Below, in pieces: positions 1 to 7,288 of a stretch of 7,312 nucleotides of DNA; within the stretch, counting starts at the first letter, position 1, and each line of letters opens with the position of its first letter. The notes under the pieces were generated by a model. That model searched no databases. It worked only from the letters and a program-made list of their open reading frames with translations, and was not told the DNA's origin. Source of the stretch: a bacterium (GTDB taxonomy: Bacteria; Blakebacterota; Blakebacteria; Blakebacterales; Blakebacteraceae); contig JALGWK010000246.1 of assembly GCA_025774205.1 (NCBI GenBank), forward strand, positions 1 to 7,312, read 5' to 3'. The position numbers and the translations under genes were made by a program.

Positions 1-2126
1 TCTGAATAGAGATCGGCTGCCCCGGGGATGGGGCGCAGGATTTTTTCGACCTGCAGCGCCAGGTCGGCCAGGGTCCGCAGGTCGGGGCCGAAGATCTTCA
101 CGCCCAGATCGGTGCGCACCCCGGTGGCGAGCATCTGGATCCGGTTGATGATCGGCTGGGTCCACCCGTTGGTGAGCCCCGGGATCTGAAGCCGTGAATT
201 GAGGTCACCGATCAGGTCGGCCTTGGTGAAGCCCTCCCGCCATTCCTTCTGTGGTTTCAGCAGGATGATCGTCTCGATCATCGCGACCGGAGCCGGGTCG
301 GTCGCGGTCTCGGCCCGGCCGACCTTCCCCAGGACGTAGTCGACTTCGGGCACCGATCTGATGATGGCGTCGGTCACCTGCAACAGCCGCTTCGCTTCTG
401 TCACGGTGACGTTGGGAAGGGTGACCGGCATGTAGAGGAGGCTGCCCTCGTCGAGCTGGGGCATGAACTCCCGCCCCCTGCTGGCAGCGATCGGGATCGT
501 TGCCGCCAGGATAAGCAGAGCCAGCGCGATCGTCACGAGACGATGCCGGAGCGCCATCCCCTGAACGGCGTGATAGATGGCGTTGAAAAAGCGCATGAGA
601 GGGTTCTCACGCTCAGTGCGGAGACGCCGCCCCCGGATGAAGATGGTCATCAGGACCGGAACCAGGGTGATCGAGATGAGGGCAGCTCCCGTCATGGTGA
701 AGGTTTTGGTAAAGGCCAGCGGAGTGAAGAGTTTGCCCTCCTGGCCCGTGAGCATGAAGACCGGGACGAAGGAGAGGATGATGATCACGAGACTGAAGAA
801 GATCGGCCGCCCGACCTGTTTTGCCGAGGTGATCACTATGGCCGTGATCTCTTCGCGCGTCTCCAGTTGTGATTCTGAGATGTGCCGGTAGGCGTTCTCA
901 ACCATCACGACCGAGGCATCCACGATGACACCGATGGCGATCGCCACCCCTCCGAGCGACATGATATTGGAGGTGATCCCGAGGTACTTCATGAAGATGA
1001 AGCTGACGAGCACGGCGATCGGGAGACTCACGATGATCACCAGCGCGCTCCTGAAATGCATCAGGAAGAGAAACACGATCAGGGCGACGATGATCGCTTC
1101 CTCGGTGAGCGTGTGCCGCAGGTTGTCGACGGCGTTCTCGATCAGTTCGGAACGGTCGTAGGCGGTCCGGATTGAGACGCCCTCCGGCAGTCCCGCCTCG
1201 AGTTCCGTGATCCGGGCCTTGACCCGGTCGATGACATCTTTCGCGTTCTCGCCGTAGCGCATCACGATGATGCCGCCGACGACCTCTCCCTCACCATTCT
1301 GGTCGAGGAGGCCGCGTCTGATGTCGCCTCCCATCTGGACCGTGCCCAGGTTGCTCACGTAGATCGGTATCCCCTCGGGGGTGGCGCCGACCACGATATC
1401 CTCGACATCTTCGAGGGACTTGATGTAGCCAAGGCCCCGCACGACATACTCGATGTCGCTCATCTCGAGCAGGCGTCCGCCGACGTCGGCGTTGCTGCCG
1501 CGGACCGCCTGGATGACACGGTTGAGGGGGAGGTTATAGGCGAGCAGTTTCGCGGGATCGATATCGATCTGGTATTGCCTGACGAAACCTCCGATCGAGG
1601 CGACTTCACTCACTCCCTCGACGGCGGCCAGCGAGAAGCGCAGGTACCAGTCCTGAACCGAGCGCAGGAAACCGAGGTCGTGGTCCTCGCTCTCGAGCAC
1701 GTACCAGTAGACATGCCCCACGCCGGTCCCGTCAGGTCCGAGAGTCGGTGTCACTCCGTCCGGCAGGAGGCTCTGGGCGTAATTCAGCTTCTCCAGGACG
1801 CGACTCCTGGCCCAGTAGATGTCGACCTTATCCTCGAAAATCACGTAGATGATGCTGCGGCCGAACATACTGGTGGCCCGGACCGATCTGACCCGGGGCA
1901 GTCCCTGGAGGGCGGTGGAGAGGGGGTAGGTGATCTGGTCTTCGATCACCTGCGGCCCCCGACCCATCCATTCGGTGGAGACGATCACCTGGTTGTCACT
2001 CAGGTCGGGGATGGCATCGAGGGGAGTGTTCTGAAGGGCCCATATTCCCCAGGCGACCGCGAGGATGAATACGATCCCTACGATGAGCCGGTTGCGGATG
2101 CTCGCTTCGATGATGCGATCGATCAT
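1..2126 (-). CDS. cusA: CusA-type Cu(I)/Ag(I) efflux RND transporter, inner-membrane pump (3' end cut by window)
   Basis: This is the proton-driven inner-membrane subunit of a tripartite heavy-metal efflux (HME-RND) pump, moving Cu(I)/Ag(I) from periplasm or cytoplasm to the TolC channel. It reads from ATG 2126 for 708 codons without interruption; the family is usually about 1,040 residues, so roughly the last third lies outside the window. TM1 is at about residues 12-30, followed by the family motif TPLDAIPDLSDNQV at 34-47. TM2-TM6 lie at about 343-498. The TM4 proton-relay residues are Asp403 and Glu410 (IVDASVVMVEN). Met566, Met616 and Met665 match E. coli CusA M573, M623 and M672 with identical 50- and 49-residue spacings, which argues for Cu/Ag rather than Zn/Co/Cd. 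TM methionines equivalent to M391, M410, M486 and M501 are kept, but M403 is Ile401. The start overlaps the cusB stop (ATGA), and no clear Shine-Dalgarno precedes it, so translational coupling is likely. Confidence 0.95.
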   Translation of the reverse strand, partial: MIDRIIEASIRNRLIVGIVFILAVAWGIWALQNTPLDAIPDLSDNQVIVSTEWMGRGPQVIEDQITYPLSTALQGLPRVRSVRATSMFGRSIIYVIFEDKVDIYWARSRVLEKLNYAQSLLPDGVTPTLGPDGTGVGHVYWYVLESEDHDLGFLRSVQDWYLRFSLAAVEGVSEVASIGGFVRQYQIDIDPAKLLAYNLPLNRVIQAVRGSNADVGGRLLEMSDIEYVVRGLGYIKSLEDVEDIVVGATPEGIPIYVSNLGTVQMGGDIRRGLLDQNGEGEVVGGIIVMRYGENAKDVIDRVKARITELEAGLPEGVSIRTAYDRSELIENAVDNLRHTLTEEAIIVALIVFLFLMHFRSALVIIVSLPIAVLVSFIFMKYLGITSNIMSLGGVAIAIGVIVDASVVMVENAYRHISESQLETREEITAIVITSAKQVGRPIFFSLVIIILSFVPVFMLTGQEGKLFTPLAFTKTFTMTGAALISITLVPVLMTIFIRGRRLRTERENPLMRFFNAIYHAVQGMALRHRLVTIALALLILAATIPIAASRGREFMPQLDEGSLLYMPVTLPNVTVTEAKRLLQVTDAIIRSVPEVDYVLGKVGRAETATDPAPVAMIETIILLKPQKEWREGFTKADLIGDLNSRLQIPGLTNGWTQPIINRIQMLATGVRTDLGVKIFGPDLRTLADLALQVEKILRPIPGAADLYS

Positions 2127-3479
2127 GACAGTGGATCCGTTCCCGGTGGATCAGGCTCTCCGCTGTCATGGACGTGTCCCGTCGCCGCGGACACCGCCGC
2201 ACTGGTGATCGCCCTGAGCTGGCTCTCCGAATCGAGCAGGAAGCCGCCGGAGGAGGCCACTTCAGCACCCTCCTCCAGGCCGTCCACTATCTCCACCCAC
2301 TCTCCGATACGGTTCCCCACCGTCACGTACCGCGGTGTGAACCGGTTCTCCGAGACCTCCTCCCAGACCACCTGCCGCTCACCGGTGTTGATGACCGCTG
2401 AGGCCGGCACGGTGAGGATGTTGCTCAGGGGTACCATGATCGTGGCGGTGCCGAACATCATCGGCTTCAGCCGACCGCTCCGGTTCGGGAATTCGGCCCG
2501 CACGCGGATCGTACGCGAGCGGGGATCCACGACCGGCTCGATGAATCCGATCGTGCCGGTGAAGGTCCGGTCGGGCCAGGCATCGGTAGTGACCTCGATC
2601 GCGCGTCCCAGTCGCAGGGCCTGGAGGTCCTTCTCATAGAAGTCGGCCAGGAGCCAGATGGAGGTGAGATCGGCGATGTCGAAGAGGGTCTGGCCTTCCT
2701 TTATATACATTCCTTCATGGACCATCTTTTTCATGACTGTGCCGGAGGCCGGGGCATGGATCGTCACCGTGGTCGGGACGGTCCGGGTCTGTTCAAGTTC
2801 TTCGATCTGTGCTTCTGTGATCCCCCACAGGATCAGCCGCTGGCGGGTCGCCCGACGGAGTTGTTCCCGGACCATCTTCATGGTCTCACTCTCGGGACCA
2901 TCTTCCGGCGGGAGCGTGGTCAGGTACTCCTCCTGCGTCTGGATAAGGACCGGGCTGTACAACTCCAGGAGTGGTTCGCCTTCGGTGACCATGGAGCCGG
3001 TGAAATCAACATGCAGCTCTTCGACCCGACCGCTGATCCAGGCCGCGACATGGGCGGTGAGCTGTTCGTTCACCGCGAATCGTCCGACAGCCGTGATCTC
3101 CTTCTCCAGATCGGTACGATGGGCGGTTGAGGTTGCCACGTTGGCCAGATTCCTCTGTAGCGGCGAGAGGGTCACATCGGGCAGTTCTCCGGCGACAAAG
3201 TCACCCGGACTGCCGCTCACTTCGGTGGCTGCCGGTACCAGGCTCATACCACAGATGGGGCAGTCACCGGGACGGTCACTCACCACCGAGGGATGCATCG
3301 GGCAGGTGTATACCGCTTCGCCCTGATCGGTTGCGGCCTGTGCGGCAGACGTAGACGGTCTCGGCCACAACGGTTCCCTGCCGTGAGCTTCCGGGCAGAG
3401 GGATGATCCGCAGTACGACGCCGGTGGTTGCCAGCAGCAGTACCACAGCTATGACGAGGATGGTGTTCAGATGTTTCAT
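2123..3479 (-). CDS. cusB: CusB-type RND periplasmic adaptor with heavy-metal-binding domain, frameshifted near its N-terminus
   Basis: This is the membrane-fusion/adaptor subunit linking CusA to the outer-membrane channel. The start at ATG 3479 overlaps the tolC stop (ATGA) and has a good ribosome site (AGGGAA, 3491-3486). It opens MKHLNTILVIAVVLLLATTG, a membrane anchor or signal at residues 5-26. That frame decays into unrelated sequence after about residue 40. The body continues in the +1 frame from about 3370 (415 residues if counted from TTG 3370). It contains a heavy-metal-binding domain (YTCPMHP at 21-27, CPICGM at 37-42), a barrel-sandwich/lipoyl domain split around a hairpin (about 100-235; APASGTV at 206-212), a beta-barrel domain (about 236-312) and a membrane-proximal domain (about 313-390). 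The frame must change between about 3370 and 3310. Whether this is mutation, sequencing error or recoding cannot be told here. The family assignment is firm; the functional state is not. Confidence 0.85.
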
Positions 3480-3886
3480 GATCCATTCCCTGATTGTCCG
3501 GTGTTGAGAGCTTCCGGTATGGGTGTGCCGATTATCGCTTCCATCTCGATCAGATGACGGTGGTAATCGGTCATCACCCTGATCGATTCGAGCTGGTAGT
3601 TGAAGAGGGTGGCCTGGGCGCTCAGCAGGGACAGGAAATCGACCTGTCCGACCTGGTATCCGGCCAGCGCGCTGTTCAGAACTCCCTCCGCCTCCGGGAC
3701 GATCTCCGAGGCATAGAGCCTGATCAGCCGGCGCGATTCCTCGAACCTGGTCTGGAGCCGGTGGATCGAATCGCTGATGCCAAGTTCAATATCCTGCAGC
3801 CGGTAACGGGCCTCCCGGACGAGCGCTTCCTGTTCCTCGACCGCCTGCGACTGCTTCCTGTCCGACCAGAGGGGGATCTGGACCAT
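3476..3886 (-). CDS. TolC/CusC C-terminal fragment
   Basis: This is the third readable piece. The homologous sequence begins upstream of ATG 3886, at about 3945 (SYAQRDGGRADLISASV, then MVQIPLWSDRKQ), so the ATG is only the first methionine in this frame. It contains the second OEP repeat: the P-L-W/D-R-K-Q strand-to-helix turn, long helices, and LNSALAGYQVGQVDFLSLLSAQ, matching the Y-x-x-G motif of the family. It ends in the helix DYHRHLIEMEAIIGTPIP. Its stop overlaps the cusB ATG by four bases. Confidence 0.7.
   Translation of the reverse strand: MVQIPLWSDRKQSQAVEEQEALVREARYRLQDIELGISDSIHRLQTRFEESRRLIRLYASEIVPEAEGVLNSALAGYQVGQVDFLSLLSAQATLFNYQLESIRVMTDYHRHLIEMEAIIGTPIPEALNTGQSGNGS
3486..3491 (-). 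promoter_or_regulatory. Ribosome binding site fixing the cusB start
   Basis: AGGGAA on the minus strand, 6 nt before ATG 3479. It supports the anchor-bearing start in the first frame over the TTG at 3370 in the second frame, which has no such site. Confidence 0.6.
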
Positions 3887-3900
3887 GACCGAAGCGCTGA

Positions 3901-4401
3901 TCAGGTCGGCCCGGCCTCCGTCCCGCTGGGCATACGAAGTCCCCTGAGCAGGGTGGGATTGCCGGTCCGTGCCATCTCGAGCAGTTCGTCGGCGCCGGGG
4001 AGCGGACCGGCCGGTTCGGGAAGTCCTGCCAGGTCGAATCGGGAATCGGCCGGGTTTCCCCGGAGGATGTTCATGGTGCTCCTGAGCCCGGCCTGCCTGG
4101 CTTCGAGACGGATCAGTCGCTCGGTCAGTCGGGCATGTTCAAGACGGGCCTTGAGGATGTCCTGCTGGATCCCGCTGCCGGTCCGGTACCGGGCCTCCGA
4201 GATACGGATGAAGGTATCGAGCAGGGACTGGTTCTCGGAGACGATCGCCAGGGCCTGCTCGATGTCATGGAGTTCCAGATAGAGCTGCCTGGCCCGAAGG
4301 TTCAGCATCTCCCGGGTCACCGCGATCTCCTGTTCAGAGATATTGAGGCCCCGCTCCGAGACTGAAGTGCGAGCGTCCCTGACTCCGGGCGCCGGGAACA
4401 T
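3901..4401 (-). CDS. TolC/CusC central fragment
   Basis: This is the second readable piece. It restarts within the downstream copy of the duplication at an internal ATG (4401) with no ribosome site. It carries the long periplasmic alpha-helices of the first OEP repeat: ISEQEIAVTREMLNLRARQLYLEL, then FIRISEARYRTGSGIQQDIL, where the Y-R/Q-x-G motif marks the helix-strand turn, and RGNPADSRFDL leading to LLEMARTGNP, the start of the second repeat. The final residues after about TLLRG (LRMPSGTEAGPT) are out of frame. Confidence 0.65.
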   Translation of the reverse strand: MFPAPGVRDARTSVSERGLNISEQEIAVTREMLNLRARQLYLELHDIEQALAIVSENQSLLDTFIRISEARYRTGSGIQQDILKARLEHARLTERLIRLEARQAGLRSTMNILRGNPADSRFDLAGLPEPAGPLPGADELLEMARTGNPTLLRGLRMPSGTEAGPT

Positions 4402-4775
4402 CTGAGAGACCAGACTGAAGTGCGAGCGTCCCTGACTCCGGGCGCCGGGAACATCTGAGAGACCGACAGGGTCTTCATCGTCATGTCCATCTGATTGAAA
4501 CTGAAGCTGCCCGACGGCAGGTTCATGATTCCGAGTCCGAGGGTCGGATCAGGCAGGGCGCCGGCCTGTGGAATCCGGAACTGACCGGCATCCCTGCCCG
4601 CCTCCCGGGTGGCCACTCCAGGGTGAGTGGCAAGGACTTCCGATACGAACTCATGCATCGATAATACCGGTAGCGGCAGGTCACTCTGAGCAACAGCCAT
4701 TTCGCTGCCAGGCAAGAACACCAGGGACGCCAGGAGCGCGATGGCCGATCGGGTATGTCGGATTGGCTTTCTCAT
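4317..4775 (-). CDS. TolC/CusC N-terminal fragment
   Basis: This is the first readable piece of the broken channel gene. It has a signal peptide, then a first OEP-type segment (LSMHEFVSEVLATHPGVA, ALPDPTLGLGIMNLP, MTMKTLSVSQMFPAPG). The motif in which a conserved Pro-Asp-Pro precedes a beta-strand is typical of CusC-like channels. After residue 121 (position 4412) the reading frame enters the second copy of the duplication out of phase, and the remaining residues to the stop at 4317 are not homologous sequence. Confidence 0.7.
   Translation of the reverse strand: MRKPIRHTRSAIALLASLVFLPGSEMAVAQSDLPLPVLSMHEFVSEVLATHPGVATREAGRDAGQFRIPQAGALPDPTLGLGIMNLPSGSFSFNQMDMTMKTLSVSQMFPAPGVRDARTSVWSLRCSRRPESGTLALQSRSGASISLNRRSR
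4359..4464 (-). repeat. Perfect 53-bp tandem duplication inside tolC
   Basis: Positions 4359-4411 and 4412-4464 are identical over 53 of 53 bases and directly abut. The flanking bases differ on both sides (4358 g versus 4411 c; 4412 a versus 4465 g), so the unit is exactly 53 bp. Because 53 is not a multiple of three, the duplication shifts the channel gene out of frame. Deleting either copy restores a continuous coding sequence, so the event is a recent duplication rather than an ancestral protein repeat. Confidence 0.97.
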
Positions 4776-4938: not shown

Positions 4939-5048
4939 CTTCGGCAGTAATCCAGCTACACTTCGGCAGTACTCCAGCTACATTCCGGGAGTACTTCAGC
5001 TACACCCTGGTCGTACTCCGGCAACTGCTCGGCAGTACTCCGGCCAGC
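4939..5048. repeat. Array of about five degenerate 22-bp direct repeats
   Basis: Units begin at 4939, 4961, 4983, 5005 and 5027. The first two differ at one base; the third differs from the second at several; the fourth and fifth keep mainly the core GGCAGTACTCC-(A/G)-GC. The core contains AGTACT, itself a palindrome. The 22-bp period is not a multiple of three, so the array is not a protein repeat. It equals about two helical turns, so the cores face the same side of the DNA. No unique spacers separate the units, so this is not a CRISPR array. Confidence 0.85.
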
Positions 5049-5292: not shown

Positions 5293-5865
5293 ATGGCCGA
5301 GTACACGAAGAACAATCGCCTGCCCGCCTGGAGCCTGGTCCTCATTCCTCTGCTTCTGCTGCCGATCGTGGCTCTGACTGGCGCCGGATACCCCGACACC
5401 ACTTCCGCCGACCACGCCTTTGTGGGTGTCGACGGCTGCAAGATGTGTCACCGGAGTGCGGCCAAGGGCAACCAGTTCGGACAGTGGGAAGGCTCACGGC
5501 ACGCCAAGGCCTTTGAGACCCTGAGCAGCGACGCCGCGAAGGCGATCGCCACCGAAAAGGGACTCGGGAATCCCCAGGAAGCGGCTGAGTGTCTGGCCTG
5601 TCACACGACCGGCCCCGGTGGTGAACATGCCGCCACCTGGAAGGCTGAAGAAGGTGTCGGCTGTGAAGCATGCCACGGCGCCGGCGCCGACTACAACAAG
5701 TTCCCGATCATGCGGGACCATGAGCAGTCAGTCGCCAATGGCATGCTCGTACCGAACGAAGAGACCTGCCTGAAGTGTCACAACGATAACAGCCCGACCT
5801 TCAAGGGTTTCGACTTCGAAGAGAAGCACGCGAAGATAGCGCACCCCGATCCGACCAAGGGATAG
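5293..5865 (+). CDS. Membrane-anchored tetraheme c-type cytochrome, cytochrome c554 family
   Basis: This is a periplasmic electron carrier of 190 residues. A hydrophobic N-terminal helix at about 13-31 acts as a Sec signal or uncleaved anchor; there is no lipobox cysteine. Four heme-attachment motifs follow: CKMCH 49-53, CLACH 100-104, CEACH 124-128 and CLKCH 159-163. The order CxxCH, then W-x-x-S-R-H-A (65-71), then CHTTG and VGCEACHGAGA is the layout of cytochrome c554-type proteins. His70, His143, His179 and His184 are candidate distal ligands. Start ATG 5293 has AGGAG at 5277-5281, an 11-nt spacing. An intrinsic terminator follows, then a larger multiheme gene with a related N-terminal module. 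Which electron donor it serves (quinol oxidase, nitrogen-oxide or metal pathway) cannot be told: no hydroxylamine oxidoreductase or NapC-type gene is visible. The c554 label means fold family, not a role in ammonia oxidation. Confidence 0.9.
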   Translation: MAEYTKNNRLPAWSLVLIPLLLLPIVALTGAGYPDTTSADHAFVGVDGCKMCHRSAAKGNQFGQWEGSRHAKAFETLSSDAAKAIATEKGLGNPQEAAECLACHTTGPGGEHAATWKAEEGVGCEACHGAGADYNKFPIMRDHEQSVANGMLVPNEETCLKCHNDNSPTFKGFDFEEKHAKIAHPDPTKG

Positions 5866-5904
5866 CTGTCCGGGGGTAACTGTCCGGGGGTAACTGTCGG
5901 ACAG
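5866..5904. repeat. 14-bp tandem repeat with hairpin, directly after the tetraheme stop
   Basis: CTGTCCGGGGGTAA occurs twice in tandem (5866-5879, 5880-5893), starting right after the TAG. A third partial copy runs into GGACAG (5899-5904), which is the inverse of CTGTCC (5880-5885 or 5866-5871), so the transcript can form a 6-bp stem with either copy. It could be an mRNA 3'-end stabiliser or simple slippage. Confidence 0.6.
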
Positions 5905-6044: not shown

Positions 6045-6052
6045 AACCAGTG

Positions 6053-7288
6053 ATGAACGGAACGTGGAAACGCAGGGCGCAGATAGTGGCGGTAGTGGTG
6101 CTGATCCCCGGCTTCATGCTCGTGGCGGGATGCGAGCAGGATGAAGGGGCAACCGGTCCGGCGGTAGACGGCAGCGAAGTCGCCCTGAGGTACGTCGGTT
6201 ATTCAGATACCGTGAACCGGAATCCCGTCTGCGTGCAGTGCCACCAGGAGACGACCTTCGGCTGGCGCCTGACTGCTCACGCCGACGCGCTGACCACCAT
6301 CCAGGAAAACGACTTCGCCGACGCTTCCTGCATCCCCTGCCACACGACCGGATGGGACGCCGACGATTCCCTCTACGGGGCCGATGACGCCTGGGCGGCA
6401 GCTTCGAGTGATACCCTCAAATATCGGGATGTACAGTGCGAGGTCTGTCACGGACCGGCCAGCCAGCACAACAACGCCTACCTCGATTCGCCCACCGACG
6501 TCCTCATGCCGGTCGACTCCGAACTGTGGGACGCCGACCTGTGCGGTCAGTGCCATGAGGGCACCCACCATCCCTACCTGGAGGAGTGGGAGGATTCGGC
6601 TCACGCGGACTGCGCCTCGTGCCATATCGCCCAGTCGTTCGAGCAGTGGATCAGCACGGGGGTGAGCGGATACATCGCCGACGATCCCATGCCGATCACG
6701 TGCCAGGCCTGTCACACCGCCCACAGCAACGAGAATCCGGGCCAGCTCCGGCTGCCACTGGGACAGAACGTGATCTGCGCGAAATGCCACAATGCTGAAG
6801 GTGCCTTGCCGGGCGAGGCGATCCATCACGCAACCTGGGAGATCTTCACCGGCACCCTCGGGTTCACCTATCCGGGTGAGGAATACGAGAATTCGGTCCA
6901 CACCACGGCTCTGGCCACTGAAGCATGCATCGCCTGCCACGTGTTCCAGAGTCCCTACGTCAGTGAATCGGTCCCGATGAAGACCGGTCACACTTTCGAA
7001 CCCCGGATAGAGGCCTGCCAGCAGTGCCATGAAGGCGCCACCGATTTCGACATCGATGGCGTGCAGACCGAAATCCAGGGCCTGCTCACCTCGCTGGAGG
7101 CGGAGCTCGACGCCGCCGGCGCCGGCCAGGATACCACCACCAGCTACCTGCGGGCGGAGTATATCTTCGAGGCGATGACCTCGGAGGGCAGTCTGGGGGT
7201 TCATAATACGGAGTACACGCGCAAACTGCTGGAGGATGCCCTGGCCGACTTCACACCGGTACCGGCCGATTCCGGGGGAGGGCGATAA
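6053..7288 (+). CDS. Nonaheme c-type cytochrome lipoprotein
   Basis: This is a 411-residue exported multiheme electron-transfer protein. Its lipoprotein signal peptide ends in the lipobox LVAGC, with Cys27 as the lipidated residue, so it should sit on a membrane, probably the outer one. Nine CxxCH motifs start at residues 60, 93, 129, 164, 187, 217, 242, 292 and 322. Hemes 1-3, with TAHADAL, CHTTGWD and VQCEVCHGPASQH, repeat the c554-type module of the upstream tetraheme protein. Hemes 6 and 7 are a doubled-CxxCH unit. GHTFEP at 312-317 offers a distal histidine before heme 9. The C-terminal helical tail (about 335-400, with LGVHNTEYTRKLL) resembles tails seen in several large multiheme cytochromes. 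There is no CxxCK motif as in nitrite reductase NrfA, and no sign of the hydroxylamine oxidoreductase crosslink site. An electron conduit role is more likely than a known catalytic one. The next gene starts 2 nt after the stop. Confidence 0.9.
   Translation: MNGTWKRRAQIVAVVVLIPGFMLVAGCEQDEGATGPAVDGSEVALRYVGYSDTVNRNPVCVQCHQETTFGWRLTAHADALTTIQENDFADASCIPCHTTGWDADDSLYGADDAWAAASSDTLKYRDVQCEVCHGPASQHNNAYLDSPTDVLMPVDSELWDADLCGQCHEGTHHPYLEEWEDSAHADCASCHIAQSFEQWISTGVSGYIADDPMPITCQACHTAHSNENPGQLRLPLGQNVICAKCHNAEGALPGEAIHHATWEIFTGTLGFTYPGEEYENSVHTTALATEACIACHVFQSPYVSESVPMKTGHTFEPRIEACQQCHEGATDFDIDGVQTEIQGLLTSLEAELDAAGAGQDTTTSYLRAEYIFEAMTSEGSLGVHNTEYTRKLLEDALADFTPVPADSGGGR

Follow-up and report, generated by a model that had tools for sequence, protein, structure and literature searches.

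A perfect 53-bp tandem duplication in the channel gene of a metal-efflux operon probably arose from local misassembly of a fragmented draft genome

RND efflux operons of the CusCBA/CzcCBA type carry, in the order C-B-A on one strand, genes for an outer-membrane channel (OEP), a periplasmic adaptor (HlyD_D23 with HMBD) and a CusA/CzcA permease. Tandem repeats with units of about 50 bp are known from M. tuberculosis, where 54-57-bp repeats in promoters vary in copy number among isolates and within populations, show minority reads and are reported to be phase-variable (PMC12817950). Metagenome assemblies contain local errors in the form of wrong local repeat counts, gene-breaking joins and unmerged overlaps that leave false short duplicates; IDBA-UD is the assembler with which such errors are suspected to be most prominent (PMC7111523). 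Faulty assembly also accounts for many apparent pseudogenes in bacteria (PMC11017572).

The window, which is the whole stretch of DNA analysed here, is a contig in its entirety (C27, 7312 bp), one of the 527 that make up a 3.09-Mb draft genome with 85.9% completeness and 4.8% estimated contamination. Its minus strand carries a heavy-metal efflux operon with the C-B-A gene order and domain content of the CusCBA/CzcCBA systems (Table 1), in which OEP (PF02321), adaptor (PF16576 and PF19335) and CusA/CzcA-type permease (PF00873) genes are adjacent and TIGR00914 scores above its curated cut-off. In contrast to those systems, the assembled cusC and cusB of the window have broken frames, and cusA runs off the contig end. 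OEP matches at 3904-4401 (1.3e-6) and 3479-3886 (1.4e-14), together with the neighbouring cusB and cusA, bear out an initial sequence-only reading that had named the gene a TolC-type channel of a metal-efflux operon; the substrate, Cu/Ag or another metal, can only be predicted, and at no finer than family level. As assembled, the window holds no intact outer-membrane channel gene, and a search of the same genome for a second cusC copy returned only a distant TolC paralogue (25% identity, contig C464). A plasmid origin of the locus was also considered and rejected, as plasmid records gave only distant TolC matches.

Table 1. Features of the efflux operon in the window and its three lesions
Feature	Position	Strand	Basis
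cusC/TolC-type (OEP, PF02321) gene, three frame segments as assembled	3476-4775	-	Pfam OEP; intact homologue L024:5216-6520
53-bp unit, first copy on + strand	4359-4411	-	TRF and exact identity
53-bp unit, second copy; zero extra homology at junction 4411/4412	4412-4464	-	TRF and exact comparison
Second lesion: out-of-frame loss of 76 bp from cusC, junction near 3941/3942	3937-3947	-	Nucleotide alignment to G001 (congener); lost block kept by homologues read in frame
cusB-type periplasmic adaptor (HlyD_D23, HMBD), start region frame-shifted	2123-3479	-	PF16576 5e-74, PF19335 2.6e-14; ORFs 2123-3370 and 3276-3479
Third lesion: frame-shifting loss of ~100 bp in 5' part of cusB, near 3340	3333-3346	-	blastn breaks, alignment, HMBD matches
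cusA/czcA-type RND transporter, open 708 codons to contig end	3-2126	-	PF00873 (ACR_tran) 2.5e-158; TIGR00914 1.1e-232

Two identical, abutting 53-bp units had been reported within cusC at 4359-4464, and both TRF (53 bp x 2.0 copies, 100% match) and exact comparison confirm them. A perfect repeat of a 53-mer is far beyond chance. Its edges are exact, as the homology stops right at the unit borders, and both the junction and the locus occur once in the genome. We do not take the zero junction homology as proof of an artefact, as out-of-frame cases of 22 and 23 bp in control genomes share it. Folding of the repeat was tested and is ordinary, with nothing special found (z 0.94). As 53 mod 3 is 2, the extra unit shifts the cusC frame, as the sequence-only reading had stated, and the gene as written runs from its start at 4775 for ~152 aa to a stop at 4317-4319.

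The same reading held that loss of one unit would rejoin the protein seamlessly and that the event is exactly reversible. Locally the frame does rejoin: with a single unit it is open across the repeat for 333 codons from stop to stop. It nevertheless ends at a stop near 3901-3903, well before the gene end, because a second frame-shifting lesion, the 76-bp deletion, lies near 3941/3942, 0.4 kb downstream of the duplication; the C-terminal part of cusC (3476-3886) is in a different frame. Reducing the repeat to one unit therefore does not restore a full-length product, and exact reversibility does not hold.

Relatives were sought among other species in the genome collection, where the only congener match is JALGVQ010000055.1, from the MAG Meg19_1012_Bin_119, which is probably the congener compared here (hereafter G001), so that the comparison within the genus covers this genome. 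Its syntenic operon, on stretch L024, has a single 53-bp unit in an intact cusC whose frame is open for 450 codons (435 aa in the reading used). The repeat is thus not kept at the same place, and a pattern in which all relatives carry two copies, raised beforehand as a possible refutation, was looked for and is contradicted by this genome. Relative to G001, the window's cusC lacks 76 bp at 3941/3942. The corresponding 26-residue block is kept by all homologues from other lineages that were read in the right frame (a count that leaves out L004, L007, L012, L014 and L016, which were in the wrong reading frame), and therefore the window lost the block rather than G001 having gained it.

The damage extends into cusB. 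Here the window passes out of frame from the start of the first heavy-metal-binding domain seen in G001 straight to the linker that precedes the second, and one such domain is matched in the window versus two in G001; the third lesion thus falls inside the first domain. Three frame-shifting lesions, the duplication, the 76-bp deletion and the ~100-bp loss, accordingly lie within 1.1 kb of one operon. Stops in the cusC, cusB and cusA fragments occur only at these lesions, and differences between the window and G001 are about 2-4 times as frequent at third codon positions as at first or second ones (in the C-terminal part of cusC, 16.4, 10.3 and 38.4% of first, second and third positions differ). 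This codon pattern indicates purifying selection on the operon, either up to the very recent past or still in force. The absence of other stops and the concentration of divergence at third positions do not suggest a decaying operon, and for the same reasons the lesions are either very recent or unreal.

Similar lesions were surveyed as perfect tandem duplications whose extra homology did not exceed 5 bp. The survey covered 81 contigs (446 kb) of the window's genome, 194 kb of G001 in 21 stretches and, as controls, 800 kb of single-contig genomes from other phyla, sampled in 40 stretches of 20 kb each. Out-of-frame units of at least 25 bp number five in the window's genome (53, 104, 70, 28 and 29 bp), two in G001 and none in the controls, with a one-sided binomial p of ~0.006 for the window's genome alone and 0.003 with G001 included. 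At a limit of at least 20 bp there are six in the window's genome versus two in the controls (p 0.03), and again two in G001. These rates serve as a guide, as the counts are small, the 25-bp limit was chosen after the data had been seen, and the controls belong to other phyla with lower G+C (0.48 versus 0.61). Unrelated genes of the same assembly thus carry similar lesions above the single-contig rate. A 22-bp perfect duplication (L034:3043-3086) cleanly splits a DUF1846 gene (NF010184) into parts that match profile positions 3-181 and 173-492, and one of 104 bp (L032:267-474) splits another gene, separating its ion-channel part from its TrkA_N part. On stretches L115 and L125 the frames lengthen when one duplication copy is kept. 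Overlapping perfect duplications of 57 and 28 bp were also seen at L115:6806-6947, in a region whose plus-strand frame has TPR matches. The G001 draft has perfect out-of-frame duplications of its own, of 76 bp at L073:3814-3965 and of 35 bp at L074:16320-16389, the latter breaking a frame of 413 codons.

We consider faulty local assembly of a fragmented draft the probable origin of the second 53-bp unit (probability about 0.74), because several lesions fall in one operon and comparable duplications are found across the same draft. A short overlap at a join may have been written twice, giving the second unit, while nearby bases would have been dropped at two other places in the operon; such an error can arise, for example, when strains are merged at the locus. 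Like the local errors described in MAGs, the window combines a short duplication and a changed repeat count with joins that break genes, but in the overlap cases published so far Ns separate the duplicates (PMC7111523), whereas the duplication here has none. A sediment MAG set with bins named in the 'Meg' style of the congener was assembled by IDBA-UD (PMC9727166); use of that assembler for G001 or for the window's genome is no more than a possibility. A local assembly fault would be likelier than three independent events that each shifted a frame within 1.1 kb, too recently for other damage to have built up. Most likely, then, the duplication and the two other lesions stem from assembly, a view drawn from the lesions themselves, the intact locus of G001 and the scattered duplications. 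The second unit is most likely no real biological feature, and in the living organism cusC would most likely hold one unit, within a cusCBA metal-efflux operon that is intact and ordinary.

Of the three explanations offered by the sequence-only reading, a recent knock-out, a phase-variation-like state and an assembly error, the last is thus the best supported, on the strength of the several operon lesions and the comparable duplications elsewhere in the draft. A real and recent inactivation, in which the organism or part of the sampled population carries the duplication and both deletions, with cusC and cusB as young pseudogenes, is possible though unlikely. It would fit a duplication that is perfect and frame-shifting, several lesions in one operon are a possible outcome of relaxed selection, and a comparable 22-bp duplication splits a gene in a single-contig control genome (L093). 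Yet all fragments keep a codon pattern of purifying selection with no other stops, cusA is long and open, and the genome-wide spread of similar lesions over unrelated genes points to assembly rather than to selection on metal efflux. We regard as highly improbable a phase-variable switch that would turn the channel off and on as slippage or recombination adds or removes the 53-bp unit. What speaks for it is that a perfect tandem repeat may be unstable. The M. tuberculosis repeats, tandem and of similar unit length, change copy number and are reported to be phase-variable (PMC12817950), and repeats of this kind could therefore in principle be truly unstable. Unlike those promoter repeats, however, the repeat in the window has two copies only, inside the coding sequence of a gene that bears a further lesion; loss of a unit yields no full protein, cusB is broken too, the congener is without the repeat, and the folding is ordinary. 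The proposed on/off state accordingly finds no support, and the scattered duplications in unrelated genes look like an assembly fault, unlike a dedicated metal-efflux switch.

Part of the duplication excess could represent true micro-duplications in the lineage. That the duplications are real throughout, in a lineage where short tandem duplications out of frame arise unusually often and turn many genes off for a time, seems very doubtful; if they were, frequent knock-outs by short tandem duplication would make the lineage of interest. With the second unit read as an assembly error, its biological weight is small. The case carries a caution, in that a perfect duplication that breaks the frame of a gene in a draft assembly can look like a reversible switch, and here checks on the rest of the gene, on a relative and on the duplication rate in the same assembly point to an assembly fault.

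RNA genes and tRNAs were sought across the window and none was found. Two multihaem cytochrome c genes (5293-5865 and 6050-7288) adjoin the efflux operon and give Cytochrome_C554, Cytochrome_C7, MtrC/MtrF-like and DmsE-like matches. Between cusC and the cytochrome genes lies a degenerate 22-bp tandem repeat (4939-5041; 4.7 copies, consensus CTTCGGCAGTACTCCAGCTACA), and a 14-bp repeat with 2.4 perfect copies (5866-5898; CTGTCCGGGGGTAA) follows immediately past a cytochrome gene stop. The neighbourhood of efflux operon and cytochrome c genes is conserved in the congener.
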